A DNA stretch of 53,542 bases from Catenulispora pinistramenti. GTDB taxonomy: Bacteria > Actinomycetota > Actinomycetes > Streptomycetales > Catenulisporaceae. The notes under the pieces were generated by a model. That model was not told the DNA's origin. It did not search any database and worked only from the letters and a program-made list of their open reading frames with translations. The stretch spans positions 1 through 53,542 of the forward strand of contig NZ_JAAFYZ010000053.1 in assembly GCF_018274385.1 (NCBI RefSeq), given 5' to 3'. Positions within the stretch are counted from its first letter, which is position 1, and the number at the start of each line of letters is the position of its first letter. Position numbers and translations under genes: made by a program. This document shows, one piece after another, positions 2,941 to 53,542 of the stretch.

Positions 2941-2957
2941 CCGTCCGGGGCCGGCAA

Positions 2958-3014: not shown

Positions 3015-3069
3015 CGGCATCGCCGATCGGTCTTGGACGCTCCCTCGGCGGCGTTGATGCAATCAGCCC

Positions 3070-31701: not shown

Positions 31702-32259
31702 GTGGCCGCGGTGAGCAAGACTCCTGAGTGGCTGGAAGACGGTGAGATCCCAGAGGCGTTCTGGGATCGCGTCGAATCCAACGGCCCCGGCGATGAGGGC
31801 CCGACGGCCTGGCTGAGTGTTGCGACAGCGTCCGAGATAGTCGAGTACCAACTGGCGTTCGAGCTCGCCGCGGAGGAACTCGCCGACTATTCCGACGGGC
31901 CGTGCATCGACGCGCTCGTCTTCTCGGAGGACGACACTGAAGACTTGTGCCTCTGGATCGTTGCGCAGGGCCGTCAAGCGTGGCAGTCCGTACGAGCCGG
32001 CCGGGAGAGTCTGGCGCAAGCGGCCCGCTGGTACCTCGCCAGGCGCCTCGACACCGAATCGGAGATGTGGACGGCGGCTGGGACGTCGGCGTACTCCGTC
32101 TTCCACGACCGCTTCGGCGAGAGCCTCTCCGACCGGATGCGGGAAGTCTTAGAGCACTTCGGTGCCGCTCACGCTGGAACCGTCGCGCACGTCCAGGCGC
32201 CAGTCTGCGGGCGTGGTCAGGAGGAGGCGTCGTCCGAGTCGATCCAGAACGCCTTGTAG
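31702..32259 (+). CDS. DUF4240-like hypothetical protein with a TTA codon
   Basis: A 185-aa protein resembling DUF4240: FWDRVESN near the N terminus, SEIVEYQLAFELAAEELADY, an acidic centre (DDTEDLCLWIVAQGRQAWQS) and RESLAQAARWYLA. Its biochemical role is unknown. The start is the GTG at 31702 or the GTG at 31711, which has GAGAGG at better spacing. Leu150 is encoded by TTA (32149-32151), the rare codon read by the bldA tRNA, so its production may be tied to development. The last 43 bp overlap the convergent methyltransferase gene. Confidence 0.6.
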   Translation: MAAVSKTPEWLEDGEIPEAFWDRVESNGPGDEGPTAWLSVATASEIVEYQLAFELAAEELADYSDGPCIDALVFSEDDTEDLCLWIVAQGRQAWQSVRAGRESLAQAARWYLARRLDTESEMWTAAGTSAYSVFHDRFGESLSDRMREVLEHFGAAHAGTVAHVQAPVCGRGQEEASSESIQNAL

Positions 32260-36463: not shown

Positions 36464-37528
36464 ATGGATCAGGCCGGGGACGTCCGCGCCATCGCTGTCC
36501 CCGTCCCGCTCCTTCCGGTCGTCGGCGGCAGCAGGCGGGCGCGGTTGTTCCTCGGGCTGGCGGGTTGCGCCGTCCTGCTCGCGGCGGCGGCCTTCGCCAG
36601 CTTGGCGTTGGGGACCAAGCCGATAGCGCTGGGGACGGTGCTGCACGCGCTCTTCCATCACGACAACAGCGACGATGCGCTGATCGTCAGGGATCTGCGG
36701 CTGCCCCGGACGGTGATCGGCCTCGCCGTCGGGGCCGCCCTCGGGCTGGCCGGGACGTTGATGCAGGCCGTGACCCGCAACCCGCTGGCCGATCCCGGGC
36801 TGCTCGGCGTCAACATGGGGGCCTCGGCCGCCGTGGTGGTCGGTATCGCCGTCCTGCATCTGGACCCGCAGACGGCTCAGGTGTGGCCGGCCCTGCTCGG
36901 CGCCGGGATAGCCGCGCTGCTGGTACACACTCTCGGCGGGCGGGGGCCGCGCGGGACCGCGCCGATCCGGTTGGCGCTGGCCGGTGCGACCGTCAGCGCG
37001 GTCCTCGGTGCGCTGGTCAGTGCTCTGACTTTGTCGGACCGGGCGGCGTTCCAGGACTTCCGGTTCTGGTCGGTCGGTTCGCTGGCCGGACGCTCGTCGG
37101 CGGTCCTGGGGCAGACCGGGGGCTTCATGGCCGTCGGCGCGCTGATCGCGCTGCCGCTGGCGGGCTCGCTCAACGCCTTGGCCCTGGGCGAGGACACCGG
37201 TCGCGCGCTCGGCGTGCACCCGGGCCGGGTCGGCGCGCTGGCGTTGGTCTCGGTGACGCTGCTGTGCGGCGGCGCGGTGGCCGCCGCCGGCCCCATCGGG
37301 TTCGTGGGGCTGGCCGTGCCGCACGCCGCGCGCCAGATCACCGGCCCCGACCACCGCTGGCTGCTGCCCTACACGATGCTTCTGGCACCGACCCTGCTAC
37401 TGGCCGCCGACGTGGTCGGCCGGCTCATCGCGCCGCCGGGCGAGGTGGACGTCGGGATCGTCACCGCGCTCGTCGGGGCTCCGGTGTTCATCCTGCTGGC
37501 CCGTCGGCGCCGGGTGAGGCAGGTATGA
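36464..37528 (+). CDS. Iron-siderophore ABC transporter permease (FecCD)
   Basis: A 354-aa permease with about ten membrane segments. FecCD motifs: LRLPRTVIGLAVGAALGLAG, GTLMQAVTRNPLADPGLLGV, VGLAVPHAARQITGPDHRWL. It moves ferric-siderophore across the membrane together with the second permease and ATPase. The ATG at 36464 has GGAAGGA. The stop overlaps the next start (ATGA). An iron box upstream indicates iron repression of the operon 36464-44326. Confidence 0.93.
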   Translation: MDQAGDVRAIAVPVPLLPVVGGSRRARLFLGLAGCAVLLAAAAFASLALGTKPIALGTVLHALFHHDNSDDALIVRDLRLPRTVIGLAVGAALGLAGTLMQAVTRNPLADPGLLGVNMGASAAVVVGIAVLHLDPQTAQVWPALLGAGIAALLVHTLGGRGPRGTAPIRLALAGATVSAVLGALVSALTLSDRAAFQDFRFWSVGSLAGRSSAVLGQTGGFMAVGALIALPLAGSLNALALGEDTGRALGVHPGRVGALALVSVTLLCGGAVAAAGPIGFVGLAVPHAARQITGPDHRWLLPYTMLLAPTLLLAADVVGRLIAPPGEVDVGIVTALVGAPVFILLARRRRVRQV

Positions 37529-38628
37529 GGGCCCGGATATCCACGGCGCCGGCCGGCTCCGGCCGGGCCGCGCGCCTGCGCCCGGTCACGGTCCGGATCG
37601 GCGCCAAGCGCGGCCGACCGGGTCGCTCGGCCATCTCCTTCCGTCTCAGTCCGCGGGCCTGCCTGGTGATCGCGGCCCTGGTCGCGGCCGGGCTGGTGAT
37701 CAGTGCCCTGACGTTGAGCACCGGGAGCTATCACGTCCCGCTGTCGGACGTGGTGCGCACGGTTCTCGGCAACGGCAGCACCCTGGACCGGTTCATCATC
37801 ACCCGGCTGCGGGAGCCGCGGCTGCTGACCGCGCTGGCGGTCGGTGCGGCGTTGGGTGCCGGTGGGGCGCTGTTCCAGAGCGTCTCGCGCAATCCGCTGG
37901 GCAGCCCCGACATCATCGGATTCGACACCGGGGCGGCGACCGGCGCGTTGGTCGTCATCACCCTGATCCACGGCACGGCCGCCCAGACCGCCGCCGGAGC
38001 GGTTCTCGGCGGCCTGGCCACGGCAGCGGCCGTCTACTTCCTGGCCATGCGGCACGGTGTGCACGGCTACCGGCTGATCCTGGTGGGCATCGGGGTCGGG
38101 GCGCTGCTGTCGGCGGTGAACGGGTACCTGCTCATCCGCGCCAGCGAGAACGACGCGCAGTCCGCCGCCTTGTGGCTGATCGGGAGCCTGAACGGCCGCG
38201 GCTGGGACTACGTCGGGCCGGAGGCCCTGGCGCTGGCGGTCCTGTTGCCCGCCGCGTGGTGGATCTCGCGGGCGCTGGGCGTGCTGGAACTCGGCGACGA
38301 CCTCAGCCGCGGGCTGGGTCTGCGCGTCGAGTGGCTGCGCGGCACCGCGTTGCTGGTCGGCGTGGCGCTGGCGGCGAGCGCGACCGCCGCGGCCGGACCG
38401 GTCGGCTTCGTGGCGCTGTCCGCCCCGCAGATCGCCCGCCGGCTCACCGCGACCGCCGGTCCCAACACGCTGACTTCGGCGCTGGCCGGGGCGGTCCTGC
38501 TGGCCGGCAGCGACTTGGCGGCCCAGCGGTTCCCGTCCGGCCTGCCGGTCGGGGTGGTCACCGCCGTCCTCGGCGGCCTGTATCTGGCCTGGCTGTTGAG
38601 CCGGGAATGGCGGAAGGGACGCCCATGA
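37525..38628 (+). CDS. Iron-siderophore ABC transporter permease (FecCD), second subunit
   Basis: A 367-aa permease with about ten TM segments after a basic 55-residue N-terminal extension. Motifs: ITRLREPRLLTALAVGAALG, GALFQSVSRNPLGSPDIIGF, GPVGFVALSAPQIARRLTAT. It forms a heterodimer with the preceding FecCD. The start overlaps the previous stop and its own stop overlaps the ATPase start, a tightly coupled trio. Confidence 0.92.
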   Translation: MRARISTAPAGSGRAARLRPVTVRIGAKRGRPGRSAISFRLSPRACLVIAALVAAGLVISALTLSTGSYHVPLSDVVRTVLGNGSTLDRFIITRLREPRLLTALAVGAALGAGGALFQSVSRNPLGSPDIIGFDTGAATGALVVITLIHGTAAQTAAGAVLGGLATAAAVYFLAMRHGVHGYRLILVGIGVGALLSAVNGYLLIRASENDAQSAALWLIGSLNGRGWDYVGPEALALAVLLPAAWWISRALGVLELGDDLSRGLGLRVEWLRGTALLVGVALAASATAAAGPVGFVALSAPQIARRLTATAGPNTLTSALAGAVLLAGSDLAAQRFPSGLPVGVVTAVLGGLYLAWLLSREWRKGRP

Positions 38629-39527
38629 GCCCCGACACGAATACCGGCACGGGCACGGACACGGGCACACGCGCCGGTACCGGCACAGTGGAGCCGGAGG
38701 TCGCCGTCGACGCCGCCGGCCGACACCGGTTGTCAGCCCGGAAGCTGACCGTCGGCTACCAGGGCAAGCCAGTGATCGAGGAGCTGGACGTACACATCCC
38801 CGACGGTTCCTTCACGGTGATCGTCGGCGCCAACGGCTGCGGCAAGTCGACTCTGCTGCGCACCTTGGCCCGAGTGCTGTCGCCGATACGGGGTCAGGTC
38901 TTCCTGGACGGCGAACCGATCCACGCACTGTCTCCCAAACAGGTCGCGCGACGCCTGGGCCTGCTGCCGCAGGGCCCTGTCGCACCGGACGGCATCACCG
39001 TGCTCGACCTGGTCGCCCGCGGCCGGCACCCGCACCAGAACCTGCTGAGCCGGTGGTCGGAGGCCGACGAGCGCGCGGTCCGCGACGCGATGGCCGCCAC
39101 CGACACCGCCGAGCTCGCCGACGCTTACGTGGACGAGCTCTCCGGCGGTCAGCGGCAGCGGGTCTGGCTCGCGATGGCCCTGGCCCAGGAGACCGGCATC
39201 CTGCTGCTGGACGAGCCGACCACCTTCCTCGATCTGGCCCACCAGGTCGAAGTGCTGAACCTGTGCGCCCGGCTGCACGCCGCCGGACGCACCCTGGTCG
39301 CGGTCCTGCACGACCTCAATCTGGCCTGCCGCTACGCCGACCACCTGATCGCCATGCGGGACGGCGCGATCGCCGCCGTCGGCCGCCCCGGCGAGGTCGT
39401 CACCCCCGAGCTGATCGAGGACGTCTTCGGTCTGCCCTGCCGGGTCATCGACGATCCCGAGACCGGTACTCCGCTGGTCATCCCGCTGGCACCGAACCCG
39501 CTGCAGCAAGAAGCGAGTTCGTCTTGA
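38625..39527 (+). CDS. Iron-siderophore ABC transporter ATP-binding protein (FepC-like)
   Basis: A 300-aa ATPase: Walker A VIVGANGCGKSTLLRTLARV, Q loop LLPQGPVAPDGITVLDLVAR, signature ELSGGQRQRVWLAMALAQET, Walker B ILLLDEPTTFLD and switch VLHDLNLACRYADH. Residues 1-40 are a Thr/Gly-rich low-complexity lead (TNTGTGTDTGTRAGTGT) encoded by GC-rich short repeats. The ATG at 38625 overlaps the previous stop. It energises the two FecCD permeases. Confidence 0.92.
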   Translation: MSPDTNTGTGTDTGTRAGTGTVEPEVAVDAAGRHRLSARKLTVGYQGKPVIEELDVHIPDGSFTVIVGANGCGKSTLLRTLARVLSPIRGQVFLDGEPIHALSPKQVARRLGLLPQGPVAPDGITVLDLVARGRHPHQNLLSRWSEADERAVRDAMAATDTAELADAYVDELSGGQRQRVWLAMALAQETGILLLDEPTTFLDLAHQVEVLNLCARLHAAGRTLVAVLHDLNLACRYADHLIAMRDGAIAAVGRPGEVVTPELIEDVFGLPCRVIDDPETGTPLVIPLAPNPLQQEASSS

Positions 39528-39614
39528 GAGCCCTGCGTGCCCTGCGTGCCCTGCTGCCCGTCGCCACCACACAACCGCCTCCCGCCCCCTGACCACCCGA
39601 AGGAACCGCGCACC

Positions 39615-40673
39615 ATGTCGCCGACACCCATCGCCCCTCCCCGCAGCACCGGTCACCGAGCTTCCGGCGCCTCCGTTCCGTTCGTCCCGTCCCGGCGCCG
39701 CCTGCTCGGCGCCTCGATAGCCGGGGCGGGCCTTTCCGGCCTGCTCGCCGCCTGCGGCTCGGACAAGACCCCCGCCGCCCAGGCGGCCGGGTCGGGATCC
39801 TGGTCCTTCACCGACGACCGGGGCACCACCGTGAGGCTGCCGACCCAGCCCCGGCGCGTGGCCCTGCTCACCGACACCGTGACCTCGGCACTGTGGCCCG
39901 CCGGGCTGCGTCCCGTCGCCGCGTTCGCCAGCGACCCGGCCACCACCGAATCCGTCCAGCTGAACCTGGCCAAGGAAGGCATCGTCCAGATCGGCGGCAA
40001 GGACGCGCAGCTGGACCTGGAGGCACTGGCCGGGGCCAAGCCCGATCTGCTCATCGACGTGGTCCAGGCCGACGGCACCCTGCAGACCGTCGGCAAGACC
40101 GCGGCCGCCGCGCAGATCGCACCGGTCGTCGGCATCAGCATGTACCAGCCGATCGAGCACATCGTCACCACCGCGGAGAACATCACCGCGGCCGTGGGCG
40201 CACGGCTGGCCGACACCGAGGCGAAGACCGGCTATCAGAGCGCCGCGGAGAAGGTGCGCAGCGCGGTGAAGAGCAACCCCGGCGTGCGCGTCGGATTCGT
40301 GTTCGACATCGGTGCCACCGAACTGGCCGTGATGAACAGCGGCACCTGGCCGATCCTGAAAACGGTCGCCGGGCTCGGCGTCGAGCTGGTCGCCATCGCC
40401 CAGAGCGAGAAGAACACCTACAGCCAGCCGATCAGCTGGGAACGGGCGCCGCAGATCCCGGCCGACCTGCTCGTGTGGGCCGTCACCGACCCGCTGCCGA
40501 CGAACCCGCTGTGGGCGAAGATCCCGGCGGTCGCGGCCGGCCAGTTCTGGCGGCCCGACCTCGCCTCCTGGTACACCTACAGCTACGCCAACTTCACCGG
40601 GCTGCTCACGGGACTGGCCGATCACCTCGCCGCCGCGAAGCCCGGCATCGGGCCGACCTCCCCGCTGTCGTAG
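39615..40673 (+). CDS. Iron-siderophore substrate-binding lipoprotein
   Basis: A 352-aa binding protein. The N terminus has an Arg-rich SRRRLLGAS segment and lipobox LSGLLAACGSD, so it is a lipoprotein. The mature part has the two-lobed TroA/FepB fold (VALLTDTVTSALWPAGLRPV, DLEALAGAKPDLLIDVVQAD, and ELAVMNSGTWPILKTVAGLG late). AAGGAAC lies upstream of the ATG at 39615. It captures ferric-siderophore at the outer face and feeds the permeases encoded just before it. Confidence 0.9.
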   Translation: MSPTPIAPPRSTGHRASGASVPFVPSRRRLLGASIAGAGLSGLLAACGSDKTPAAQAAGSGSWSFTDDRGTTVRLPTQPRRVALLTDTVTSALWPAGLRPVAAFASDPATTESVQLNLAKEGIVQIGGKDAQLDLEALAGAKPDLLIDVVQADGTLQTVGKTAAAAQIAPVVGISMYQPIEHIVTTAENITAAVGARLADTEAKTGYQSAAEKVRSAVKSNPGVRVGFVFDIGATELAVMNSGTWPILKTVAGLGVELVAIAQSEKNTYSQPISWERAPQIPADLLVWAVTDPLPTNPLWAKIPAVAAGQFWRPDLASWYTYSYANFTGLLTGLADHLAAAKPGIGPTSPLS

Positions 40674-40688
40674 AGGTCTGCCACCCCC

Positions 40689-42395
40689 GTGGATACCGAG
40701 ACCCTGCCCGCGTCCGCGCCGTCACTGATCCGCGCCGCACTGCTGTCCCGACGGCGCGACCTGGCGATGGCGTGCCTGCTCTACAGCACCCACCAACTCG
40801 GCGAATCACTGGTGCCGGTGGTGGTCGGCGCGGCGATCGCGGCGGCGGCCGACGGCGGGCTGTCGACGACCGCCCCCTGGCTGGCCGTGCTCGCCGCCGA
40901 CTTCGCACTGCTGTCGCTGTCGTACCGGTTCGGGGCCCGGGCCAGCCAGCGGGCCAAGCAGTACGCCGCTCACGAGGTGCGCATGCTGGTCGTGGACCGG
41001 GCCGTCCGGGCCGGCGGCGGGGTCGAACCCCCGCCGGGGGCGTTGCTCACCCTGGCCGGCAGTGACGCGGCCCGCATCGGTGCCTTCGCCGGCATCTGCG
41101 CCTCCGGGCTGGCCGCCGTGGTGGCGTTGGTCGTCGCCACCGCGCTGCTCATGGGGTTCTCCCCGGTGCTCGGCGCGGTGGTCCTGGTCTGCGTGACCGT
41201 GCTGCTGCTCGCCATCGGCAAGGCTTCGGACCGGCTGCGTGCCGGCTACCGCAGTGAACAGCAGGGCTCTGCGAACGCGGCCACCCTCGCCGAGGACATC
41301 GTGCGCGGGCTGCGGGTCCTGCGTGGAATCGGTGCCGAGCGCGCGGCCGCCGACGCCTATACCGCCGCCAGCCGATCGGCACTCAACGCGGCGGCACGCA
41401 CCGCGCGCATGGAATCCTCGCTCACCGGACTCAGGACCCTGGCAACCGGCGCCTACCTGATGGCGGTCGCCGGGGTCGGCGGCTGGCTCGCCCTGGGCGG
41501 CCGGCTCAGCCTCGGACACCTCGTCTCGGCGCTGGGTCTGGCGCAGTTCCTCACCGGTTCGCTCCAGACGCTGTTCGGTCTGGGTCCGGCGCGCGCCAGG
41601 GCGATCGCGTCGGCCGAACGCATCTTGGATCTGGTCCGGACACCGGTCGGCGTCAGCGAGCCACCGGAGCCGGTACTCGACGCTCCCGACGCGTCCAACG
41701 CCGATCTGCAGTTCCGGGCCGCCGTCGGACGTTCCGGCACCGCGCTGGACTTCACCGTCCAGCCCGGCCGGATCACCGGGCTGGTCGTGGACGACACCCG
41801 CGCGGCGGCCGATGTCCCCGCGCTGCTGGCCCGCGAGTACGACCCGGTTCGGGGCGAGGTACGCCTCGGCGGCAGGCCGCTGCGGGACTACGATCTCGAC
41901 ACCCTGCGGTCGACGGTGCTCGTCGCGCTGCACGATGCCGCTCTGTTTCCGGGGACGGTCCGCGGCAACCTCGGGGCACCCGGGCCTGGACCTGGCCCCG
42001 GGGCCGCTGAGGCGGCGCGGACGGCTACCGCGGACCAGGTCATCAGCACCCTGCCAGAGGGGTGGGACACGGTGCTGGGCGAAGGGACCCGATCGGTGTC
42101 CGGCGGGCAGCGCCAGCGGCTCGCGCTGGCCCGGGCGCTCGCGGCGCGGCCTGCCGTCCTGGTGCTGCACGACCCCACGACCGCCGTCGACAGCGCGACG
42201 GAGGCCGTCATCGCCGACAACCTGCGCCGCTATCGGGAGAATCAGACCACGTTGATCGTGACGACGAGCCCGGCTCTGCTCTCGCGCTGCGATCGGGTGG
42301 TGTTCTGCGGGAGTAAGGGCACGACGGCGGCGGACAGCACTCATGACGAGCTCGTCGCGTCGCTGGACGCTTACCGTGCCGTGGTGGTCCGGTGA
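40689..42395 (+). CDS. ABC transporter half (TM-NBD) with degenerate ATPase site
   Basis: A 568-aa exporter-type protein: about six TM helices (residues 15-315) and a C-terminal NBD. The NBD lacks Walker A: where a GxxGxGKS loop is expected (about residues 359-375) it reads GRITGLVVDDTRAAADVPAL. Walker B reads VLVLHDPTTAVDS, with His494 for the Walker B Asp and Asp495 for the catalytic Glu. The signature [20 protein letters not shown] is intact. This fits the non-catalytic partner of a heterodimer whose other half is encoded next. IrtAB-like siderophore transporters of mycobacteria and relatives are the nearest analogue. The start is the GTG at 40689. Confidence 0.85.
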   Translation: MDTETLPASAPSLIRAALLSRRRDLAMACLLYSTHQLGESLVPVVVGAAIAAAADGGLSTTAPWLAVLAADFALLSLSYRFGARASQRAKQYAAHEVRMLVVDRAVRAGGGVEPPPGALLTLAGSDAARIGAFAGICASGLAAVVALVVATALLMGFSPVLGAVVLVCVTVLLLAIGKASDRLRAGYRSEQQGSANAATLAEDIVRGLRVLRGIGAERAAADAYTAASRSALNAAARTARMESSLTGLRTLATGAYLMAVAGVGGWLALGGRLSLGHLVSALGLAQFLTGSLQTLFGLGPARARAIASAERILDLVRTPVGVSEPPEPVLDAPDASNADLQFRAAVGRSGTALDFTVQPGRITGLVVDDTRAAADVPALLAREYDPVRGEVRLGGRPLRDYDLDTLRSTVLVALHDAALFPGTVRGNLGAPGPGPGPGAAEAARTATADQVISTLPEGWDTVLGEGTRSVSGGQRQRLALARALAARPAVLVLHDPTTAVDSATEAVIADNLRRYRENQTTLIVTTSPALLSRCDRVVFCGSKGTTAADSTHDELVASLDAYRAVVVR

Positions 42396-44326
42396 GCACC
42401 GCGCCTGGGCAGACGGCATCGGTGCGGGGCTCGCAGGAGGCGGCGGCTTCGCCGGCCGACGTGAGCGAGATCGGGAGCGGCGCGAGCGCGGGCGCGACCT
42501 ACCCGGGCGCAATTGCCAGCGACGCTGCCACCGCACGTCTGCTGCCGGTCGCCGACAACCGCCGCTGCCTGGCCTGGGCCACCGGCTACGCGCGGCGTCG
42601 GCCGGGGCTGCTGGCCGCGGCCCTCGGCGCGATGGTGGTGACCGCCGCGATGGGCCTGGCCGCGCCGCTGGCCACCGGTGAGATCGTGCAGGCGCTGGTA
42701 GAGCGGCGCGGGCGTGGGGCGGCGATCGGTCCCGTCATCCGCCTTGCGCTGGCCGTACTCGTGGGCGCGCTGGCGGCCCGGGCGGCGGGTCGGCTCTCGG
42801 CCCGGCTGGTCCTGCCGGCCGTCGCCGAACTGCGGGAGGACGTCCTGGCCGCCGCTGTCGCCCTGCCGGTGGACGTGGCCGAGGCCGGGGGCTCCGGAGA
42901 CCTGATCTCCCGGGTCTGCAACGACGTCGATCAGATCACTGACGCCGCGCAGGAGTCCCTCGCGGACTTCACCTCCGCCGCGCTGGCCATCTGCGCGGCC
43001 TTCATCGGTCTGGCCGCGCTGGACTGGCGCTTCCTGCTCGCCGCGTTGCCGGCCGTGCCGATCCAGCTGTGGACGCTGCGCTGGTATCTGCGGTCGTCGC
43101 GGCCGGTCTACGCCGCCGGCCGGATCGCGGAGGGGCGGCGCACCGAATCGCTGCTCGGGACCTTCGCCGCGCTGCCGACTGTTCGGGCCCTGCGACTCGG
43201 GCCGGCCCGCCGCGCCGCCGCCGCGCAATCGTCGCTGGACGCGGTGTCGTATGAGATCCAGGCGACCCGCCTGGCCACCAGGTTCTATGGACGCCTGAAC
43301 GGGGCCGAGCTCATCGGCCTCGGCACCATCCTGGCCACCGCCGCGGTCCTGATCCACGACGGCGGTACCACTGTCGGCGCCGCGACGAGCGCCGCGTTGT
43401 TCTTCGTCGGCCTGTTCAACCCGATCAACACTGTGCTCGGCGTGTTCGACGATCTTCAGCAGGCCGGTGCCGGAATCGCGCGGCTGCTGGGGGTTCGCGA
43501 CCATGCGGCCGTCGTCGTCCCGGCGTCCGGCCGCGGCGCTGCCGCAGATACAGACACCGCCACCGCCACCGCCGACACCGACGCCGACGCCGACGCTTCG
43601 CTGGTCATCGACGAGGTCAGCTTCCGCTACGGTCCGCCGGGCGGGCCGGGTAGGCCCGGCACACCGGAGGCCGTGTCCGGGATCAGCATCGACATCGCAC
43701 CCGACCGGCACGTCGCGGTCGTCGGAGTCAGCGGCTCCGGCAAGTCCACCCTCGCTGGACTGGCAGCCGGTCTGTACACGCCGGGCTCGGGCAGCGTCAC
43801 CATCGGCGGTACGCCGGTCGCCGGACGGGTCGCCTTGATCGCCCAGCAGCCGCACCTGTTCGCCGGAACCGTCGCGGACAACCTGCGCTTGGCCGCGCCG
43901 AAGGCCGACGACGCACAGATCAGCGCCGCACTGACCGCCACCGGCGCCTTGCCTTGGGTATCAGCCCTGCCGCAGGGCACGGACACCCTCATCGGCGCCG
44001 GCGGCCACCCGCTGACCGGCGGCCAAGCCCAGCACCTGGCCCTGGCCCGGCTCCTCCTGCTGGACCCGCCCTTCGTCATCCTGGACGAGGCGACCGCCGA
44101 GGGCGGCAGCGACGCGGCCAGGTCTTTGGACGCGGCGGCGCGAGCGGCCATCCGGGATCGCGGGGCGCTGATCATCGCCCACCGGCTCTCGCAGGTGGTG
44201 GCCGCCGCGCAGATCGTCGTGCTGGCCGACGGCCGCGCCGTCGAGCGTGGCACCCACGACGAACTGCTGGCGGCCGACGGGCACTATGCCCACCTCTGGC
44301 AGGCGTGGTCCCGGCACCGGACCTGA
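42392..44326 (+). CDS. ABC transporter half (TM-NBD), catalytically complete partner
   Basis: A 644-aa TM-NBD protein with TM helices between residues about 70 and 350 and a full NBD: Walker A VVGVSGSGKSTLAGLAAGLY, signature LTGGQAQHLALARLLLLDPP, Walker B FVILDEATAEGGS, switch IIAHRLSQVVAA. The TM domain is preceded by an Ala-rich tail, and a TATATADTDADADA low-complexity linker precedes the NBD. The start GTG overlaps the previous stop (GTGA at 42392-42395), so both halves are made in equal amounts. Likely role: inner-membrane handling of siderophore or ferric complex with the FecCD system. Confidence 0.87.
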   Translation: MSTAPGQTASVRGSQEAAASPADVSEIGSGASAGATYPGAIASDAATARLLPVADNRRCLAWATGYARRRPGLLAAALGAMVVTAAMGLAAPLATGEIVQALVERRGRGAAIGPVIRLALAVLVGALAARAAGRLSARLVLPAVAELREDVLAAAVALPVDVAEAGGSGDLISRVCNDVDQITDAAQESLADFTSAALAICAAFIGLAALDWRFLLAALPAVPIQLWTLRWYLRSSRPVYAAGRIAEGRRTESLLGTFAALPTVRALRLGPARRAAAAQSSLDAVSYEIQATRLATRFYGRLNGAELIGLGTILATAAVLIHDGGTTVGAATSAALFFVGLFNPINTVLGVFDDLQQAGAGIARLLGVRDHAAVVVPASGRGAAADTDTATATADTDADADASLVIDEVSFRYGPPGGPGRPGTPEAVSGISIDIAPDRHVAVVGVSGSGKSTLAGLAAGLYTPGSGSVTIGGTPVAGRVALIAQQPHLFAGTVADNLRLAAPKADDAQISAALTATGALPWVSALPQGTDTLIGAGGHPLTGGQAQHLALARLLLLDPPFVILDEATAEGGSDAARSLDAAARAAIRDRGALIIAHRLSQVVAAAQIVVLADGRAVERGTHDELLAADGHYAHLWQAWSRHRT

Positions 44327-44330
44327 CCGA

Positions 44331-44407
44331 CTCCGGATCTTGGGCGACTCCAGATCTTGCCGGCTCCAGATCTTGCCGGCTCCAGATCTTGGCAGCTCCA
44401 GATCTTG
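44331..44407 (+). repeat. Five CTCCRGATCTTG repeats between the ABC pair and the binding-protein gene
   Basis: CTCC(A/G)GATCTTG starts at 44331, 44348, 44364, 44380 and 44396 (spacing 17, 16, 16, 16 bp). The array begins right after the ABC gene stop and ends 10 bp before the iron box. It may be a binding array, a mild transcription barrier or a decaying satellite. Copies are too short and unspaced for CRISPR. Confidence 0.6.
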
Positions 44408-44416
44408 GCACGCCAC

Positions 44417-44435
44417 TTAGGTAAGGCTAACCTTA
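44417..44435. promoter_or_regulatory. Second IdeR/DmdR iron box
   Basis: TTAGGTAAGGCTAACCTTA matches the IdeR consensus TTAGGTTAGGCTAACCTAA at 17 of 19 positions. It lies 40 bp before the binding-protein start, so this gene has its own iron-repressed promoter. Confidence 0.85.
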
Positions 44436-44474
44436 TTTCATTCCATGACCGACCCAAGCCCCGGAGAATCGCTG

Positions 44475-45512
44475 ATGAGCGCCACCCTGACCACCCCGCC
44501 CGATCTGAAGGTGGACGAAGAGTTCGCCCGCATCGTCAACGAGCTGACCCGGCGCGGACTGCTGGCCGGCGGGCTCGCCGGGTTGGCCGGCCTCGGACTG
44601 GCCGCATGCGGCGGGAGCGACGGCAAGAAGCGTGCTCCCTCGGGCTCGGGCCCGACCCGCACGGTGAGCAGTGTCAACGGCGCCATCGCGGTGCCCGCGA
44701 ACCCGACGCGGGTGGTCACGCTCGACGGCTTCACCATGGCCGCCATGTTCGACCTGGGCGCCGCCCCGGTCGGCGTCTACAGCGCCGGGGAGCAGTACGT
44801 CGAGCCGCAGTTCGTGGAACGCTGGCGGCGGATTCCGAAGATCTCCGACGGCACCGTCGGCGGCGCGGTGGACCTGGAGAAGGTGGTGGCGCTGCGGCCC
44901 GACCTGATCCTCGGCATCGACGGGCAGAAGCCGCCGTACGAACAGCTCAAAGCGATCGCGCCGACCGTGATCCTGCCGTTCAACGCCAGCAACGCCCCGT
45001 GGCGCGACATGGCCCAGGACACCGCCACCGCGCTCGGGCAGGCCGATGCCCTCGCCGCGCTGCGCAAGCGCTACACCGAGCGCGCCGCCGGCATCAAGAC
45101 CACGTACGCGGACCAGCTCGGGAAACTGCGCTGGAACCTGCTTCAAGGCGGCTTCGACAACGGCCAGTTCTGGCTCTACGGAGCAGCCTCCCCGGTCGGC
45201 GGCATCCTCGCCGACGCCGGAGTGAAGTTCGCCGACGCCTCGCAGGCCGTGGGGACCACCGGCCAGCAGAGCATGTCCTACGAGACGATCGGCAAGCTCC
45301 AGAACGCCGACGCGATCTTCTACTACGCGACCAACACCGGGGCGCCCGCGAACCTCGGTCCGCAGCTGTTCGCGCAACCGCTGTGGAAGACGCTGTCCGC
45401 GGTGACGGCTGATCACCTTTACGGAACCATCTACTTCCTGCCGTCCGGCTACAGCGATGCGCTCGGCGTGCTGGACGCGTTGGAGGCCGCGCTCAAGAAG
45501 CTCGCTGCATAG
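44475..45512 (+). CDS. Iron-siderophore substrate-binding lipoprotein, second paralogue
   Basis: A 345-aa binding lipoprotein. After a charged leader (KVDEEFARIVNELTRRGLLA) comes the lipobox LGLAACGGSD. The mature protein has the FepB/FhuD fold (TVSSVNGAIAVPANPTRVVT, LEKVVALRPDLILGIDGQKP, SYETIGKLQNADAIFYYATN). I start it at the ATG at 44475, which has GGAGA 7 nt upstream; the ATG at 44445 lacks one. It has an individual iron box. Two paralogous binding proteins suggest uptake of two siderophores or ferric forms through one permease. Confidence 0.88.
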   Translation: MSATLTTPPDLKVDEEFARIVNELTRRGLLAGGLAGLAGLGLAACGGSDGKKRAPSGSGPTRTVSSVNGAIAVPANPTRVVTLDGFTMAAMFDLGAAPVGVYSAGEQYVEPQFVERWRRIPKISDGTVGGAVDLEKVVALRPDLILGIDGQKPPYEQLKAIAPTVILPFNASNAPWRDMAQDTATALGQADALAALRKRYTERAAGIKTTYADQLGKLRWNLLQGGFDNGQFWLYGAASPVGGILADAGVKFADASQAVGTTGQQSMSYETIGKLQNADAIFYYATNTGAPANLGPQLFAQPLWKTLSAVTADHLYGTIYFLPSGYSDALGVLDALEAALKKLAA

Positions 45513-46921: not shown

Positions 46922-47755
46922 ATGGAGATCAGCATTCTTGGTCCAGTGTCAATTGTGCACGATGGAATTCACCGTGAGATAAAAGCGAGCAAGGTGCGGG
47001 CTCTGCTCGCCACCCTCGCGCTGGAGCCCGGACGTGCCGTGGCACGTGTCGAGCTCGCTGAAGAGCTCTGGGCGGGGCAGCCGATGCGCAACACGCACAA
47101 TGCCCTCCAAGTGACGGCGACACGGGTGCGCAAGATCCTTGATACAGCGGGGGGAGCTTCCGTGGGGGCATTGCTTCGCGCCGTGCCCAAGGGCTACTTG
47201 CTGGATTTGCCGGCGGGGTGGATCGACAGCAACCGGTTTCTCGACACTGCTGCGCAGGGAACTGCTCAGCTGACGAAGAGCCCCTTACACGCCGCGGAGC
47301 TGCTGGAGTCGAGTCTGCGACTGTGGCGTGGGCCCGCCTTGCTCGACGCGGGCGATGGGATGCGCTGCCGTGGCGCCGCCGCGCTCCTGGACGAGCGCCG
47401 GCTTGTGGCGTGGGAAGACCTGATCACGGCGAGGATCGCCTTGGGCCAGGAGCGGGAGACGGTTCCTGAACTCCAGCAGTTGACGGCCCGCTATCCGCTG
47501 CGTGAGCGCTTCTGCGAACTGCTGATGCTGGCTCTGTACCGGACTGGCCGACAGAGCGAGGCACTCGAGGCCTACGCCATCACCCGTCGCCACCTTGACG
47601 AACAGCTGGGTGTGCGACCCGGCGACGGGCTCCTGCGCCGGCAGGCGCAGATCCTGGAACAGGCGCCGGATCTGCACGATCTTTCGGCAGTGTGGACCGA
47701 ACGGGAGCTCTCCGCTTCCCGCTCGGCCACGGTGGGATCACGTACGCATAGCTGA
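46922..47755 (+). CDS. SARP family pathway-specific activator with a TTA codon
   Basis: A 277-aa SARP: an OmpR-type winged HTH at residues 1-95 (MEISILGPVSIVHDGIHREI, KVRALLATLALEPGRAVARV, LRAVPKGYLLDLPAGWID) followed by a bacterial transcriptional activation domain (DERRLVAWEDLITARIALGQ, EALEAYAITRRHLDEQLGVR). It lacks the ATPase/TPR extension, like RedD or ActII-ORF4. AGGGGAAG precedes the ATG at 46922. Codon 122 (47285-47287) is TTA for Leu, so translation depends on the bldA tRNA. It converges with the LuxR regulator, overlapping by 18 bp, and probably activates the cluster at 48593-53528. Confidence 0.88.
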   Translation: MEISILGPVSIVHDGIHREIKASKVRALLATLALEPGRAVARVELAEELWAGQPMRNTHNALQVTATRVRKILDTAGGASVGALLRAVPKGYLLDLPAGWIDSNRFLDTAAQGTAQLTKSPLHAAELLESSLRLWRGPALLDAGDGMRCRGAAALLDERRLVAWEDLITARIALGQERETVPELQQLTARYPLRERFCELLMLALYRTGRQSEALEAYAITRRHLDEQLGVRPGDGLLRRQAQILEQAPDLHDLSAVWTERELSASRSATVGSRTHS

Positions 47756-48403
47756 GTCTTCGCCCAGCAAGGCGATGAGCCCGGTCTCGTAGGCGACCGC
47801 GACGGCCTGTGCGCGGGTTCGCACGCCGAGTCTGCCGAGGAGCTGGTGGACGTGGGAGCGCACTGTCGCGTCCGACACCGCCAGCTTCTCGGCGATCTGC
47901 AGGTTTGAACACCCCTGCGCGAGCAGGAGCATGGTCTCTGCTTGACGTGCGCTCAGCTTGGCAGCCAGGCGCTGGGATGTGTCGGAGTGCCAGGGCCGCG
48001 GTTCGTGTCGAAGCTCGATGGCGGCAGCCGCCGGCATGACCATCACGTCGCTGATCACGACCATCCGCAGAACCTGAAGCAGGTTTTCGGCAGAGCCGTC
48101 CTGCGACAAGATGGCATGGACACCTCGGCGCATCGCCTCGACGGCCCGGTGCGCGTTCTCCCCCTTGGCGGCCAGGACCACCTTGGTGACCTCGGCGAGG
48201 GCGCCGAGCTCGTGCACGTCGTTGATCGTCAAGGCCGGCGAGACGACGACTGTCACGTCGGGCCGCAGTTCTCGGGCCGCGTCCAGGATGACGTCACCCG
48301 CGCCCTCGCCGACCACGGTGAAGTCCTCCGCCTGCGTGAGAAGCAGCCGCAGACAACCGGACAGCATCGATCCATCGCAGCACAGAAGGACCCTGAGCTT
48401 CAT
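47738..48403 (-). CDS. Orphan LuxR-type response regulator, RedZ-like, with degenerate receiver
   Basis: A 221-aa protein with a receiver-like N domain and a LuxR HTH (LSARQAETMLLLAQGCSNLQ, IAEKLAVSDATVRSHVHQLL). The position of the phosphoacceptor reads PDVTVVVSPAL: the conserved Asp is Val54, so phosphorylation cannot occur there. The acidic pair near residue 10 is also reduced (CCDGS). There is no partner kinase. RedZ of Streptomyces coelicolor is a same-sized orphan regulator with a degenerate pocket that activates the redD SARP gene. This gene is convergent with a SARP and next to RedY/RedW/RedX-like genes, matching that model. Confidence 0.82.
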   Translation of the reverse strand: MKLRVLLCCDGSMLSGCLRLLLTQAEDFTVVGEGAGDVILDAARELRPDVTVVVSPALTINDVHELGALAEVTKVVLAAKGENAHRAVEAMRRGVHAILSQDGSAENLLQVLRMVVISDVMVMPAAAAIELRHEPRPWHSDTSQRLAAKLSARQAETMLLLAQGCSNLQIAEKLAVSDATVRSHVHQLLGRLGVRTRAQAVAVAYETGLIALLGEDSAMRT

Positions 48404-48592
48404 ATCTGTACTCCGATATGACGACGGCCCGTTCGGCCGGGTACATCAGCGCGATGCGGACCACGGGCCGGGACAGGCCCCTGCGACACACGACAAGATC
48501 TGGCGTTCATGAAATCCCCCATGTTTTTGTACCCGACTGGCCACACTATGCGGGCATCTTGCCCTTGAAACAGGATCAACAATCACCGGCGG

Positions 48593-50779
48593 TCAGGACC
48601 GCGCGGGGGTTTCGGCGTCCCGCACCGGGGTGGCGTCAGCGGCATCCTGCTTATGCCACAGCGCGCTGGGCCACCAGATACGACGGCCGATGTCGAGGTT
48701 CAGGGCGGTCACCATGACCGAACGGACGATGACGGTGTCGACGAGGACGCCGAAGGCGACCGCGAACCCGAGTTCGGCGAACTGGGTCAACGGCAGGGTG
48801 CCCAGGACGGCGAAGGTGCCGGCGAGGACGATGCCGGCAGAGGTGATGACACCACCGGTGGACGCCAGGCCGCGCAACGTGGCGGGACGTGTTCCCACGC
48901 TGTGGGCTTCTTCTCGGATCCGAGTCATCAAGAAGATGTTGTAGTCGATCCCCAATGCGATCAGGAAGACGAAGACGTAGAGCGGGAATGAGTTGTCCTC
49001 GGCCCCGAAGTGGAAGACGTGCCGGAACACCAACGCGCTCACGCCCAGGGTGGTGGCACAGGACAGCACGACCGTGCCGATCAGCAGCAGCGGGCTCACC
49101 AACGCGCGCAGCAGGAGGATCAGGATGGCGAGCACCACGGCCAGGACGATGGGCGCGATCAGCTCGCGGTCGTGCTCGCTGGCGCTTCTGGCGTCCAGGT
49201 TCATGGCGCTGTCCCCGCCCACCTTGGCGTCCGCGCCCGCGATGGCGTGCACCGCGGTGCGGGCGTTTCGCACGGTGACATAGGCCGCCGAACTGTCCGG
49301 CGCACCGGTGAGCGTCGCCTCCTGATACGCGTACCCGTCCTTCAGCACGGGCGCGGTGACGGTGCCCGAGGCGATGCCGGGCACCGTCTGCAGTGCCTGG
49401 TGCACCTGGTCCGCGCTCCCCGCACGTGCGGTGATCACCAGCGGGCTGGCGACCGCCGCGTCGAAGTGGCGGGCGACGGCGGCGTTGCCGACCACCGAGT
49501 CCTGGGTGGCCGTGAACTCCTGGGCTACCGACAGGCCGCCGGAGTGCAGTTGCCCGATGCCGATGGCCCCCACGGCGAGGACCAGCGCGGTGCCGATCCA
49601 GGCCAGGCGTGGCCGGCGGGCGATCCGGTCGCCGACGGCGGCCCAACGGCCCACGTTCGCGTGCTCGCCGCCGCCGACGCGGGGAACGGAGGGCCAGAAG
49701 ATCCACCGGCCGCAGACGACCATGAGCAGGGGGAACAAGGTGAGCATCACCAGGGCACCGACCACGATGCCGACCGCGAACACCGGCCCGAGGCCCCTGG
49801 TGGCGTTCATGTCGGCGAAACTGAGGCAGAGCATGCTGATCGCGACGGTGGCCGCACTGGCGATCACCGCGGGCCCGGAACGGCGCAGGGCGACCGACAT
49901 GGCCTCGGCGCGGCTGTCGTGGTTGCGCAACTCTTCGCGGTAGCGGGCGATCAGCAGGAGCGAGTAGTCGGTGGTGGCACCGAAGACGAGAATGGTGAGG
50001 ATGCCGGCGCCGTCGGAGCTGACCGTCAGTCCGGCATGGGCCGCGAGCAGGTAGATGATCCCCTGCGCCACTGTCAGCGCGATGCCCGCGCAGATGATGG
50101 GGAACAGCCACAGCACCGGGCTGCGGTAGGTCAGCAGCAGGATGGCGATGACGACGACGAGCGTGGAGTACAGCAGGGTGCTGTCGATGCCGCCGACCGC
50201 TTTGCTCAGGTCGGCCGAGTAGCCCGCGGGTCCCGCGACATGGATCGCGAGGCCGGCCGGCGCCTGGTTCGCGGCGACGCCGCGCAGCGCGGTCACCGCG
50301 CCTTTGGCCTTGGACAGGGAGTTCTGACCGAGGTTGAGCGGGACCACCGTCTCGGCAGCCTGGCCGTCGGTGGAGAACTGCGGACCGAAGACCTGCCCGC
50401 TGAGGTCGGTGCGAGTGCCGTACTGCTTGGCGTCGGCCGTGGCCTTGGCCCGGTCCTGCGCCGTCAGGCCGCTCGCGCGCTCGTAGACGATGACGGCCGG
50501 CACCGTGTCCGGATTCTGGAACAGCGACTGGATCTTGTAGACCTGGGTGGACTCCGCGCTGCTGGGCAGGGACTGCTCGACCGTGTTCTTCTCAGCGCCG
50601 GAGAGCTTGCCGGAGAAGCCGGCCGTGGTGCCGATGACGATCAGCCACAGCACCACCACCAGATAGATCACCCGGCGGCGCCGGAACGGGAGGAAGGTGC
50701 TGCGCGCCGACTGCGACGGCGCCGTTCCGACGGGCGCCGCGGCGGACGATTCTGACGAGGGAGGTCGTTGTGCCGTCAT
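48593..50779 (-). CDS. MMPL/RND-type exporter
   Basis: A 728-aa transporter with 12 predicted TM helices in the MmpL/SecDF plan: TM1 near residue 30 (VIYLVVVLWLIVIGTTAGFS), a large extracellular loop, TM 2-6 with FGATTDYSLLLIARYREELR, a second loop, then TM 7-12 with FLIALGIDYNIFLMTRIREE. The two Asp-Tyr motifs are the proton-relay signature of the family. Start is the ATG at 50779. It follows the RedY-like gene by 16 bp and probably exports the cluster's product. The S. coelicolor red cluster, as I recall it, has no MMPL at this position, so this is a difference. Confidence 0.88.
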   Translation of the reverse strand: MTAQRPPSSESSAAAPVGTAPSQSARSTFLPFRRRRVIYLVVVLWLIVIGTTAGFSGKLSGAEKNTVEQSLPSSAESTQVYKIQSLFQNPDTVPAVIVYERASGLTAQDRAKATADAKQYGTRTDLSGQVFGPQFSTDGQAAETVVPLNLGQNSLSKAKGAVTALRGVAANQAPAGLAIHVAGPAGYSADLSKAVGGIDSTLLYSTLVVVIAILLLTYRSPVLWLFPIICAGIALTVAQGIIYLLAAHAGLTVSSDGAGILTILVFGATTDYSLLLIARYREELRNHDSRAEAMSVALRRSGPAVIASAATVAISMLCLSFADMNATRGLGPVFAVGIVVGALVMLTLFPLLMVVCGRWIFWPSVPRVGGGEHANVGRWAAVGDRIARRPRLAWIGTALVLAVGAIGIGQLHSGGLSVAQEFTATQDSVVGNAAVARHFDAAVASPLVITARAGSADQVHQALQTVPGIASGTVTAPVLKDGYAYQEATLTGAPDSSAAYVTVRNARTAVHAIAGADAKVGGDSAMNLDARSASEHDRELIAPIVLAVVLAILILLLRALVSPLLLIGTVVLSCATTLGVSALVFRHVFHFGAEDNSFPLYVFVFLIALGIDYNIFLMTRIREEAHSVGTRPATLRGLASTGGVITSAGIVLAGTFAVLGTLPLTQFAELGFAVAFGVLVDTVIVRSVMVTALNLDIGRRIWWPSALWHKQDAADATPVRDAETPARS

Positions 50780-50795
50780 CGGATGGTCCGTCCTT

Positions 50796-51113
50796 TCAGG
50801 CGGCCAGGTAGCCCGGCTCGATGGGATCCCCGGAGATCTCGGACACGACCGAGGCCAGCGCGGAGAACTCGGCGCTGAGCGAACGGAACGCGCTGACCTG
50901 CATGTCCCGCTCGAAGGCCGCACGACTGCTGGCCCAGATGATCTCGAAGAAGTGGACCTTGGCATCCGGATCATCGGAGACCCGGTGCACGGTGAAGGCG
51001 TTCACGCTGGACAACTGAGGACAGGTCGCGTAGTCAGTTTCGCGGACCCAGGCCTCGAATCGGGCGGGGCTGACTCCTGGGCGAAGCCGGATGGGATGAA
51101 CGATCACGTGCAT
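50796..51113 (-). CDS. RedY-like protein (antibiotic-biosynthesis-monooxygenase fold)
   Basis: A 105-aa protein: MHVIVHPIRLRPGVSPARFE, AWVRETDYATCPQLSSVNAF, VHRVSDDPDAKVHFFEIIWA. The pattern (VIVHxIRLxPGxxPARFE, DYATCPxLxSV) is that of RedY of prodiginine clusters, a dimeric ferredoxin-like ABM fold whose exact role in prodiginine assembly is unresolved. It sits between an MMPL gene (16 bp) and the RedW-like gene (71 bp). Confidence 0.82.
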   Translation of the reverse strand: MHVIVHPIRLRPGVSPARFEAWVRETDYATCPQLSSVNAFTVHRVSDDPDAKVHFFEIIWASSRAAFERDMQVSAFRSLSAEFSALASVVSEISGDPIEPGYLAA

Positions 51114-51184
51114 GGCGACTCCATCGTCGATCGGAAACTCAGGGGTGGATGTGACACCGGACTGACGGGACTGACGCCGACCGG

Positions 51185-52348
51185 TCAGGCGCCGTGTGCG
51201 GGACGTTCAAGGCGATCGAGGCGCAAGACGCGGGCGACGTTGTTGCGCTGGATCTCGTTGCTGCCGGAGAAGATGCGGGAGGGCAGGCAGTCCCGAAGCA
51301 TCTGCTCGGCCTCGCCGTGCATGACGCCCTGCGCCCCGCGCAGCTGGATCGCGTCGAGACCGACCTGGACCGCCGCCTCGCTGACGGCGATCTTCGCCAG
51401 CGCGGCGGAGACACCGTCGACGGCACCCTGGTCGAGGTCGTGCGCGGCTTTGTAAAGGAGCAGGCGCGCTCCCTCGTATCGCAGGAGCATGTCTACGACT
51501 CGATGACTGACGGCTTGGAAGGCACCGATCGGCGTGCCGAACTGTTCGCGCTGTCGGACATAGGCGACCGTCGAGTCGATCACGCGCTTCATCGCCCCCA
51601 GGTAGACCGCGAACAAGCAGGTCCGCTCCCAGTGCATGGAAGCCGTGAAGACGCTCGCTCCCCCACCGGGTACGCCCAGGACGTGGTCCACGGGCACTGT
51701 GCAGCCGTCGAGGTGGATCTCGGCCATGGGAGATCCGTGCAGACCCACCTTGCTTTCCGGCCTGCCGATGCCCAGGCCCGGTGTTCCCGCCTCGACCAGG
51801 AACGTGGTCAGGCCGAACACGCCGCCGTCGGGTTCGGTCGCCGCCTGGACTATGAAGATGTCGGCGACCGGTGCGTTGGTGATGAAGGCCTTGACCCCGG
51901 TGATCAGGTAGTGGTCGCCGACTCGTTCGGCGCGTGTGCGCAGGTGCATCGCGTCGGACCCGGCCTCCGGCTCGGTCACCGCGTGGGCGGCTATCAACTC
52001 CCCCGAGCACAGCCCGGGCAGCCAGCGCCGCTTTTGCTCCTCGCTGCCGAAGTGCACCAGCGGGGTGACGCAGGCGAGCAAGTGCGCTGCGACGGAGAAC
52101 GCGAATCCGGTATCGCCGGTGCCTTCGCCGAGCGCCTCCAGCACGCCCGCGGTGTCCGCGGCCCCCATGCCGCTGCCGCCGTGTTCGACCGGCGCGCAGC
52201 AGCCGGTCAGTCCCAGGTCAGCGGCCGCGCGCCAGCGTGCGCGGAACTGCTCCGGATGAGGATCGGCGGCGCCGTTCAGCTTGCTGCGCGCGAAGTCGCG
52301 GACCAGGTCGCGCATCTGGTGCGTCTCGGGCTCCAGGTCGAGTTTCAT
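51185..52348 (-). CDS. Acyl-CoA dehydrogenase, RedW-like prolyl-carrier oxidase
   Basis: A 387-aa flavoprotein with the full acyl-CoA dehydrogenase plan: helical N domain, the [13 protein letters not shown] signature, [19 protein letters not shown], and the C-terminal [20 protein letters not shown] and [20 protein letters not shown]. In prodiginine, undecylprodigiosin and pyoluteorin pathways such an enzyme oxidises carrier-bound L-proline to pyrrole-2-carboxyl. The start ATG at 52348 overlaps the ketosynthase stop (ATGA). The neighbour order RedY-RedW-RedX supports the RedW assignment over a fatty-acid role. Confidence 0.83.
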
Positions 52349-53528
52349 GACACTCCGTCCGGGTGTTCTTCGATCAGGACGTGGTAATTGATGCCGCCGG
52401 TACCGAAAGAGCTCAGGGCCGCCCGCCGCGGCCGGGGCCCTCCGGCGGGCCACGGCGCGGGCCGGCGGTCGATGAAAGCGGGGATCGCGTCGAGGTCCAG
52501 TTCGGGGCTGATGGTGCCCAGGTTGGCGTTCGGCGGGAACGTGCGGGCCTGGAGGGCGAGAAGCACCCGCAGCAGGCCGGCGGCCCCGGCCGCGGCGAAG
52601 GTGTGGCCGAAGAACGACTTGGCCGAGCCCACCTGTAGGGGGCGCCGGCGCTCGCCCCCGCCGTAGACGTCGGTGACGGCCGACAGTTCGACCCGGTCGC
52701 CGACCCGGGTGCCGGTGCCGTGCGCCTCCAGGTAGTCGACCGTGTCGGGGCCGAAGCCCGCGTCGCCGAACGCCTGGCGCATGGCACGCGCCTGGCCGCC
52801 GCGGTCCGGCGCGATGAGGGAGTGGGCGTCGTTGGATCCCCCCACGCCGCGGATCACGCCGAGGATGCGGTCGCCGTCCGCCAGGGCGTCGCTGTGTCGC
52901 TTGAGCAGGAACAGCGCGCACCCGTCGCCGGGCGAGAAGCCGTCGGCTGCTTCGTCGAAGGGGGTGATCTTGCTGTGCGAGAGCAGGCCGAGCGATGAGC
53001 ACAGGATCAGATCCCGTACGTTGCAGGCCAGTTCCACACCGCCGGCGATCGCGTAGCGGGCGGTACCGCTGCGCAGGGCGCCCACCGCGAGGTCCAGCGC
53101 GGCCAGCGAGGACGCGCAGGCGGCTTCCACCGCGACCGGGACCGCGGCGAGGCGGAACTCGCCGGCGATCACGGCGGCGGTCCCGCTGGCCAGCCAGCCG
53201 TCCAGCGCGCCCGGCGCGCCCGGGTCCTCGGGGGCGCCGAACCGGCGGCGCGTCCGGGCCGCCAGCCGCCTGCGGTCTTCGCCGTCCAGGTGGGCGAGCG
53301 CGTCGAGGGCGGGGATCGCCCGGGCCGCCAGGTCCAGCTCGGCGGCGCTGTTGAGGGCTCGTTCGCGGCCCAGGCTCAGCGAGGAGCCGATGGCGATCAG
53401 GCCCGGACCGTGCAGGGACGCCGGTCGCGGTCCACCGCCGGCGAACAGCTGGGCCGCCACGGTCAGGGCCACTCGCTGCGCGGCGTCCATCGCCGTCCAC
53501 CGGCGCGGGGTGATCGGCAGTCCTGGGG
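52345..53528 (-). CDS. Beta-ketoacyl synthase, RedX-like (5' end cut at the contig edge)
   Basis: The 3' part of a ketosynthase. It shows [16 protein letters not shown] (active-site Cys), [11 protein letters not shown] (His), [20 protein letters not shown] (second His) and the C-terminal [14 protein letters not shown]. Reading backwards, the frame has no stop through [19 protein letters not shown] to base 53528, where an adapter begins, so the true start lies off the contig and the ATG at 53490 is internal. All three catalytic residues are present. In prodiginine synthesis RedX condenses pyrrolyl-carrier with malonyl-derived units. Its stop overlaps the RedW-like start. Confidence 0.82.
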
Positions 53529-53542
53529 CTGTCTCTTATACA
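53529..53542. other. Tn5/Nextera adapter sequence at the contig end (artefact)
   Basis: The last 14 bases, CTGTCTCTTATACA, are identical to the start of the Nextera transposase mosaic-end read-through. They are library sequence, not genomic. They interrupt the RedX-like gene and show that the window ends at an assembly break. Confidence 0.93.

Follow-up and report, generated by a model that had tools for sequence, protein, structure and literature searches.

The window analyzed here, which is the whole of contig NZ_JAAFYZ010000053.1 (C478; 53,542 nucleotides) from the 11.46-Mb, 671-contig genome of Catenulispora pinistramenti (G000), ends in what we read, with a probability of about 0.95, as the end carrying the regulatory and bipyrrole genes of a ~33-kb prodiginine (red) biosynthetic cluster that would be split over this contig and a second one, C445. 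A sequence-only reading of the window had placed SARP, RedZ-like, MMPL-family, and RedY-, RedW-, and RedX-like genes together at 46922-53528, and domain or profile matches confirmed all six, with E-values too low for these matches to have arisen by chance (Table 1). The best solved relatives of RedW are the prolyl-carrier dehydrogenases 5zw0, 6af6, and 4irn, and RedY aligns over residues 1-104 with the RedY-like protein of PDB 2jdj (E 1.4e-23).

The ketosynthase identity proposed for RedX in that reading stands, while the gene is not whole in the window, which contains only its second half, catalytic Cys included. RedX is 934-956 aa long in relatives, and the rest of the window's copy lies at G000:C445:53533-55193. 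Of the Catenulispora pinisilvae redX region, query positions 1-1819 align with C445, through the final base of that contig (55193), and positions 1822-3101 align with the window, running downwards from 53528. This leaves a gap of 2 bases relative to C. pinisilvae, across which the redX frame runs on. In addition, C445:35526-53506 and the initial 18 kb of the contig that carries the C. pinisilvae cluster match at 95% DNA identity. Judged from these alignments, C445 and C478 abut inside redX. The last 14 bases of the window, 53529-53542 (minus strand, TGTATAAGAGACAG), are taken as nongenomic because the C. pinisilvae homology stops at 53528; this string we take to be the end of the Nextera/Tn5 mosaic end. 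Adapter may also remain at further contig ends in this assembly; the end of C445 has none. A RedX start at 53490 was rejected: this ATG lies inside the gene, the contig end truncates redX, and homology extends to 53528.

The sequence-only reading had also expected the adenylation, carrier, and tailoring genes beyond the contig end, and C445 indeed encodes RedM, RedO, RedN, RedL/K, RedI, RedH, and RedG homologues. Its gene content is redV-U-T-like, then P-Q-R-O-N-M-L/K-J-I-H-G-like and TetR, and it ends inside redX. RedH scores 1610.9 bits on the undecylprodigiosin ligase model NF052632 (cut-off 1350), and the closest solved relative of RedM is the L-proline--[PCP] ligase 7thn (E 2.6e-104). Between them the two contigs encode the prolyl-carrier pyrrole set (adenylation enzyme, carrier, and RedW), a RedX/PigJ-type ketosynthase placed by its RedX clade with a PigJ model match below the cut-off, a RedN/PigH protein with carrier domains and an alpha-oxoamine synthase, a RedH/PigC ligase for bipyrrole and monopyrrole, and the RedP/Q/R, RedL, and RedK set for a 2-alkylpyrrole. 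A RedG Rieske oxygenase for ring closure, which is not present in every prodiginine cluster, is encoded as well and has CxH...CxxH at residues 47-69. RedW-like enzymes do occur in other proline-derived pyrrole pathways, and Catenulispora genome G013 encodes distant RedW-like acyl-CoA dehydrogenases (ACADs) with no RedH over the cut-off, so a different pyrrole-polyketide pathway sharing RedW, RedX, and RedY-like enzymes and yielding no tripyrrole could be imagined. With homologues of the RedH ligase, RedL-RedK, RedN, RedI, and RedG in one gene run on C445, such a pathway is highly improbable.

Using the NF052632 equivalog cut-off, we surveyed 391 genomes of the order for RedH and found 21 above it, namely G000, three further Catenulispora (G006, G007, and G009), one from a different genus in the family (G001), and 16 genomes of a family (f2) for which we infer assignment to Streptomycetaceae, with its genus g4 as Streptomyces. 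Fifteen of the 16 Streptomycetaceae clusters were compared, leaving out G156 (RedH at a contig end); single genes are uncalled in places in these clusters, such as the thioesterase of G290, and the redZ of G331 was found by tblastn only. Among the 10 Catenulispora genomes searched, 4 have RedH above the cut-off, and the same cluster is present in C. pinisilvae, C. rubra, and the Catenulispora metagenome-assembled genome (MAG) Bin1.32. In the RedW tree, 20 red-cluster RedW (4 Catenulispora, G001, and 15 Streptomycetaceae) come together in a single group that excludes 45 other ACADs (support 100/99), with Catenulispora as one branch and G001 plus Streptomycetaceae as the other. In the tree of the second ketosynthase (KS) of RedX, 19 RedX form one group (100/99) set against 19 RedR, 10 RedL KS, and 13 KS from the genome's own modular polyketide synthase loci, some of them identical. 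The sequence-only reading had named as its own refutation a grouping of the ACAD and KS with nonpyrrole enzymes; both fall with RedW and RedX instead.

Taken by itself the window has six of the cluster's genes, with redX interrupted by the contig end, and might suggest a decayed or incomplete red cluster that is nonfunctional in this strain. The G000 cluster proteins, however, are 70 to 98% identical, almost end to end, to those of the three other Catenulispora clusters, the redX frame is kept across the contig gap, and the KS, KAS III, and Rieske proteins retain conserved residues, which makes decay extremely unlikely. The RedX fragment in the window retains the motifs AACAS, EAHGTGT, and GHTF (the Cys and both His motifs), and all rows of a 19-row alignment (18 distinct sequences, the C. 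pinisilvae protein entering twice) share the matching Cys 700, His 832, and His 871. In that alignment a search for a Cys motif in the first half of RedX gave no match.

Several points weigh against reading these genes as a prodiginine cluster. RedW exceeds the NF045652 cut-off narrowly (661.3 versus 650 bits), and the Bin1.32 copy falls slightly below it (643.6). PigJ is the best NCBIfam match of the RedX window fragment, which scores 264 bits on the C-terminal part of that model, and the full C. pinisilvae protein scores 347.7, both far under the cut-off of 900. No NCBIfam equivalog model is matched over cut-off by RedG, the RedI methyltransferase, RedN, or RedM, with RedM exceeding the general adenylation-domain model only (353.2 versus 317.4, as judged from the 25 top-scoring of 104 matches); these four are so named because of their domains, their positions, and 46 to 66% identity to counterparts in other RedH-bearing clusters. 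A search of RedH for the PEP-utilizer site motif gave no match. The join of C445 to C478 is based on homology and reading frame rather than on reads, and the substrate of the MMPL protein is guessed from its position. Finally, the cluster is known here from its genes: content, order, families, and conservation are observed, and catalysis, export, and regulation are inferred.

Table 1. Features of the putative prodiginine cluster on contigs C445 and C478 (the window)
Feature	Contig	Position	Strand	Evidence or remark
Nitroreductase-like	C445	29069-30331	-	
Phosphopantetheinyl transferase-like (PPT)	C445	30344-31129	-	
DUF6206	C445	31126-32016	-	
Small gene beside DUF6206	C445	32029-32397	-	
KAS III	C445	32621-33622	+	
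ACP	C445	33682-33933	+	
KAS II (start uncertain)	C445	33963-35165	+	By homology
Carrier protein, 88 aa	C445	35226-35492	+	51-62% identity to Streptomycetaceae counterparts
RedN-like	C445	35492-37549	+	BioF/Kbl-type PLP domain, weak N-terminal carrier matches; 62-66% to Streptomycetaceae RedN
RedM-like	C445	37553-39217	+	Best solved relative 7thn
RedL with C-terminal SDR/epimerase (RedK-like)	C445	39214-46941	+	AMP-ligase, KS, AT, PLP, and C-terminal epimerase/SDR domains
Thioesterase-like	C445	46941-47759	+	
Methyltransferase	C445	47747-48778	+	
RedH	C445	48826-51480	+	NF052632 undecylprodigiosin ligase; Pfam PEP-utilizers domain
Rieske RedG-like	C445	51587-52690	+	Rieske PF00355; 46-55% to 13 Streptomycetaceae RedG, 58% to G001
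TetR	C445	52885-53463	+	
RedX 5' part	C445	from 53533	+	
SARP activator, RedD-like, 277 aa	C478	46922-47755	+	Pfam BTAD (E 1.3e-40) and Trans_reg_C
RedZ-like orphan response regulator (LuxR-type), 221 aa	C478	47738-48403	-	GerE, E 8e-14
MMPL-family (RND) transporter, 728 aa	C478	48593-50779	-	PF03176, E 2.8e-121
RedY, 105 aa	C478	50796-51113	-	PF11639 REDY-like protein HapK, 127.8 bits (cut-off 25)
RedW, L-prolyl-[PCP] dehydrogenase, 387 aa	C478	51185-52348	-	NF045652, 661.3 bits (cut-off 650)
RedX 3' part (second, catalytic ketosynthase half)	C478	52345-53528	-	Ketosynthase Pfam domains; cut at contig end
Sequencing adapter remnant, nongenomic	C478	53529-53542	.	C. pinisilvae homology ends at 53528

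Automatic gene calling skipped the window SARP and shortened several starts, and the SARP, RedY, MMPL, and KAS III starts were set manually. Three open reading frames on the opposite strand (50697-51455, 49010-50755, and 51194-52387, all +) have no Pfam match at E 0.001 and were rejected as shadow frames.

The layout of the cluster differs between Catenulispora and the Streptomycetaceae clusters. Counting RedL and its RedK part separately and taking RedX from C. pinisilvae, 20 of 23 query proteins have a counterpart in one or more of the 15 Streptomycetaceae clusters when a match must reach 38% identity and cover 60% or more of the query; the MMPL and TetR queries, which are not among the 20, match in 2 of these clusters each, and the small gene beside DUF6206 has no counterpart in any of the 15. 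The sequence-only reading had described RedY, RedW, and RedX as consecutive as in the Streptomyces coelicolor red cluster, and redX-redW-redY are adjacent in all 15. Thirteen of them run from SARP-X-W-Y through Z-nitroreductase-PPT-DUF6206 and further genes to KAS III-carrier-N-M-L-K-J-I-H-G. In all four Catenulispora carriers the X-W-Y block lies downstream of redG, together with redZ and the SARP, and all four add a TetR gene between redG and redX and the MMPL gene after redY. The redL-redK fusion is also found in 5 of the 13 Streptomycetaceae clusters with redL, and such a fusion has already been published for Streptomyces MBK6, according to portions of PMC8102152.

Other arrangements were seen among the compared genomes. 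Members of the TetR family are encoded near the clusters of G331 (43%) and G388 (38%), not between redG and redX. The RedH-bearing Streptomycetaceae clusters G388:C3 and G043:C102 have redX-W-Y, KAS III/ACP/KAS II, redN, redM, and redI, with no RedL or RedG by BLAST. Next to the SARP they have unassigned genes for proteins of 530-545, 444-447, and 155 aa; they possibly encode a different monopyrrole arm. In the other genus of the family, the G001 red cluster has yet another rearranged layout, with RedW-RedY-SARP-KAS III-ACP-KAS II-DUF6206-PPT-nitroreductase at G001:C381:30119-39255 and methyltransferase-RedH-RedG on G001:C129.

Within Catenulispora, RedW is 95% identical to that of C. pinisilvae NH11, 90% to that of C. 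rubra DSM 44948, and 89% to that of Bin1.32. In a RedW search of genome contigs (best 80 of 180 relatives), close relatives were all from Catenulispora and the others reached at most 39% identity, which is no evidence for absence elsewhere because the Streptomycetaceae RedW, at 62 to 66%, were missed there. Distant RedW-like dehydrogenases lie outside red clusters in Catenulispora G013 and G007 (319-391 bits on the RedW model, below cut-off), and other pyrrole pathways are a possible setting for them. Six called window genes to the left of the SARP (37525-45512) have counterparts of 90 to 98% identity in the same relative order on the C. pinisilvae cluster contig, and none of these counterparts was found among the called genes in the ~14.7 kb beyond the C. 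rubra SARP. The red cluster may therefore sit at different chromosomal places within Catenulispora.

From the gene families we would expect the product to be an undecylprodiginine together with a cyclized congener. RedM would load proline on the carrier RedO, RedW would oxidize carrier-bound proline to the pyrrolyl-carrier, and RedX would extend it, with RedN, RedI (the methyltransferase), and the RedV-like nitroreductase predicted to lead to the methoxy-bipyrrole carbaldehyde. RedP/Q/R and the fused RedL-RedK would supply the alkyl-pyrrole, RedH would join the bipyrrole and monopyrrole halves, and the Rieske protein RedG would cyclize the alkyl chain. The SARP and RedZ are the putative activators of the cluster, and the MMPL protein probably exports the pigment.

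The two regulators resemble their Streptomycetaceae counterparts, the SARP being 52 to 61% identical to the redX-adjacent SARP in 13 clusters and the RedZ-like protein 40 to 52% identical to RedZ in 12; the 3' end of redZ and the convergent SARP gene overlap by 18 bases. RedZ combines a LuxR-type helix-turn-helix with a receiver that reads PDVTVVVSP at the usual phosphorylation site and has no Asp there, as in the other RedZ rows of the alignment (judged by eye), and this fits the description of RedZ as an 'orphan' regulator in portions of PMC8102152. The SARP gene contains a single TTA codon, at codon 122 (47285-47287) in the window, at codon 122 in C. pinisilvae, and at codon 93 in C. rubra and Bin1.32, and no TTA codon occurs in redZ in any of the four Catenulispora carriers. 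The codon is otherwise rare, with 1 in 15,147 codons of the 45 called window genes excluding the SARP (in gene 31702-32259) and none in 8,417 codons of the C445 cluster genes. The TTA codon in the SARP suggests that the cluster is gated there by bldA, the rare leucine tRNA. Among the 15 Streptomycetaceae clusters, TTA is found in redZ in 4 (G151, G331, G139, and G096), in the SARP in 2 (G290 and G116), and in neither gene in the remaining 9, G388 and G043 having no redZ match in this comparison; with two such clusters, the placement of TTA in the SARP extends beyond Catenulispora. Streptomyces coelicolor has its TTA in redZ. If bldA control is real here, it would act one step lower than redZ, and the cluster would be a natural experiment on the place of bldA control in the red regulatory chain.

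The sequence-only reading had found an MMPL gene between the regulator and RedY unfamiliar in red clusters, and none of the 15 Streptomycetaceae clusters has one beside redY. The nearest solved relatives of the protein are MmpL5/MmpL4. MMPL genes do lie near the clusters of G327 and G307 (39-40%; three genes upstream of redD) and of G388 (29%). We considered the G327 and G307 genes as orthologues, which would make the pump an old part of red clusters, and rejected this because MMPL proteins encoded away from red clusters are more similar. Among the 15 genomes searched, the best matches apart from the Catenulispora red-cluster copies (51-54%) are located elsewhere, for example on G001:C18 and G000:C168. 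The gene was probably recruited in the Catenulispora lineage. That it exports the prodiginine is our guess from position and family, and both the location of its nearest noncluster relatives and the absence of an MMPL gene at redY in Streptomycetaceae red clusters could fit an unrelated passenger that has nothing to do with the pigment, which would leave the identity of the cluster unaffected. In the window as in C. pinisilvae and C. rubra, however, the gene starts 16 bases past redY (~78 in Bin1.32), and it is 89 to 95% conserved in the other three carriers, so that a passenger is possible and the less likely account. We regard the MMPL protein as a candidate prodiginine exporter.

A stronger proposal would hold that this is a rewired cluster specific to Catenulispora, with a dedicated, newly recruited MMPL pump, bldA gating at the redD-like SARP and not at redZ, and a cyclized prodiginine not known from Streptomyces; as a whole we consider this doubtful. 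What we describe is a well-preserved prodiginine cluster whose modest novelty lies in its layout, its exporter, and the position of its TTA codon. A search of titles and abstract openings found no prodiginine report from Catenulispora, with coverage that excluded most subscription journals, so the cluster may be published. The analysis assigns a full prodiginine gene set to Catenulispora and names C. pinisilvae NH11 and C. rubra DSM 44948 as carriers.

Serratia pig and red clusters have common bipyrrole chemistry and condensation, and the PigA, PigC, and PigJ models match RedW, RedH, and RedX, respectively. All three fall below the Pig cut-offs, however (RedW 418.3 versus 500, RedH 956.3 versus 1300, and RedX 264/347.7 versus 900), and the Catenulispora monopyrrole arm is, unlike that of Serratia, of the RedP/Q/R/L/K type. 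The MMPL protein shares its family and a TIGR00833 match with the ActII-type MMPL proteins of actinomycete antibiotic clusters, but at 496.6 bits it is below the 874.7 cut-off. In gene content the cluster resembles the red cluster of S. coelicolor (undecylprodigiosin/streptorubin B), with which the redD, X, W, Y, Z, V, U, T, R, Q, P, O, N, M, L, K, J, I, H, and G set is shared. In contrast to S. coelicolor, the Catenulispora cluster has its X-W-Y block, redZ, and SARP downstream of redG, has P-Q-R all on one strand, adds the MMPL and TetR genes, and carries TTA in the redD-like gene and not in redZ. This account of the S. coelicolor layout and TTA position finds support in portions of PMC8102152. 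From the same portions, the prodigiosin cluster of Streptomyces sp. MBK6 (MIBiG BGC0002090) resembles that of Catenulispora in having redL and redK in one reading frame, and it is almost colinear with the S. coelicolor cluster, whereas the Catenulispora cluster is rearranged.

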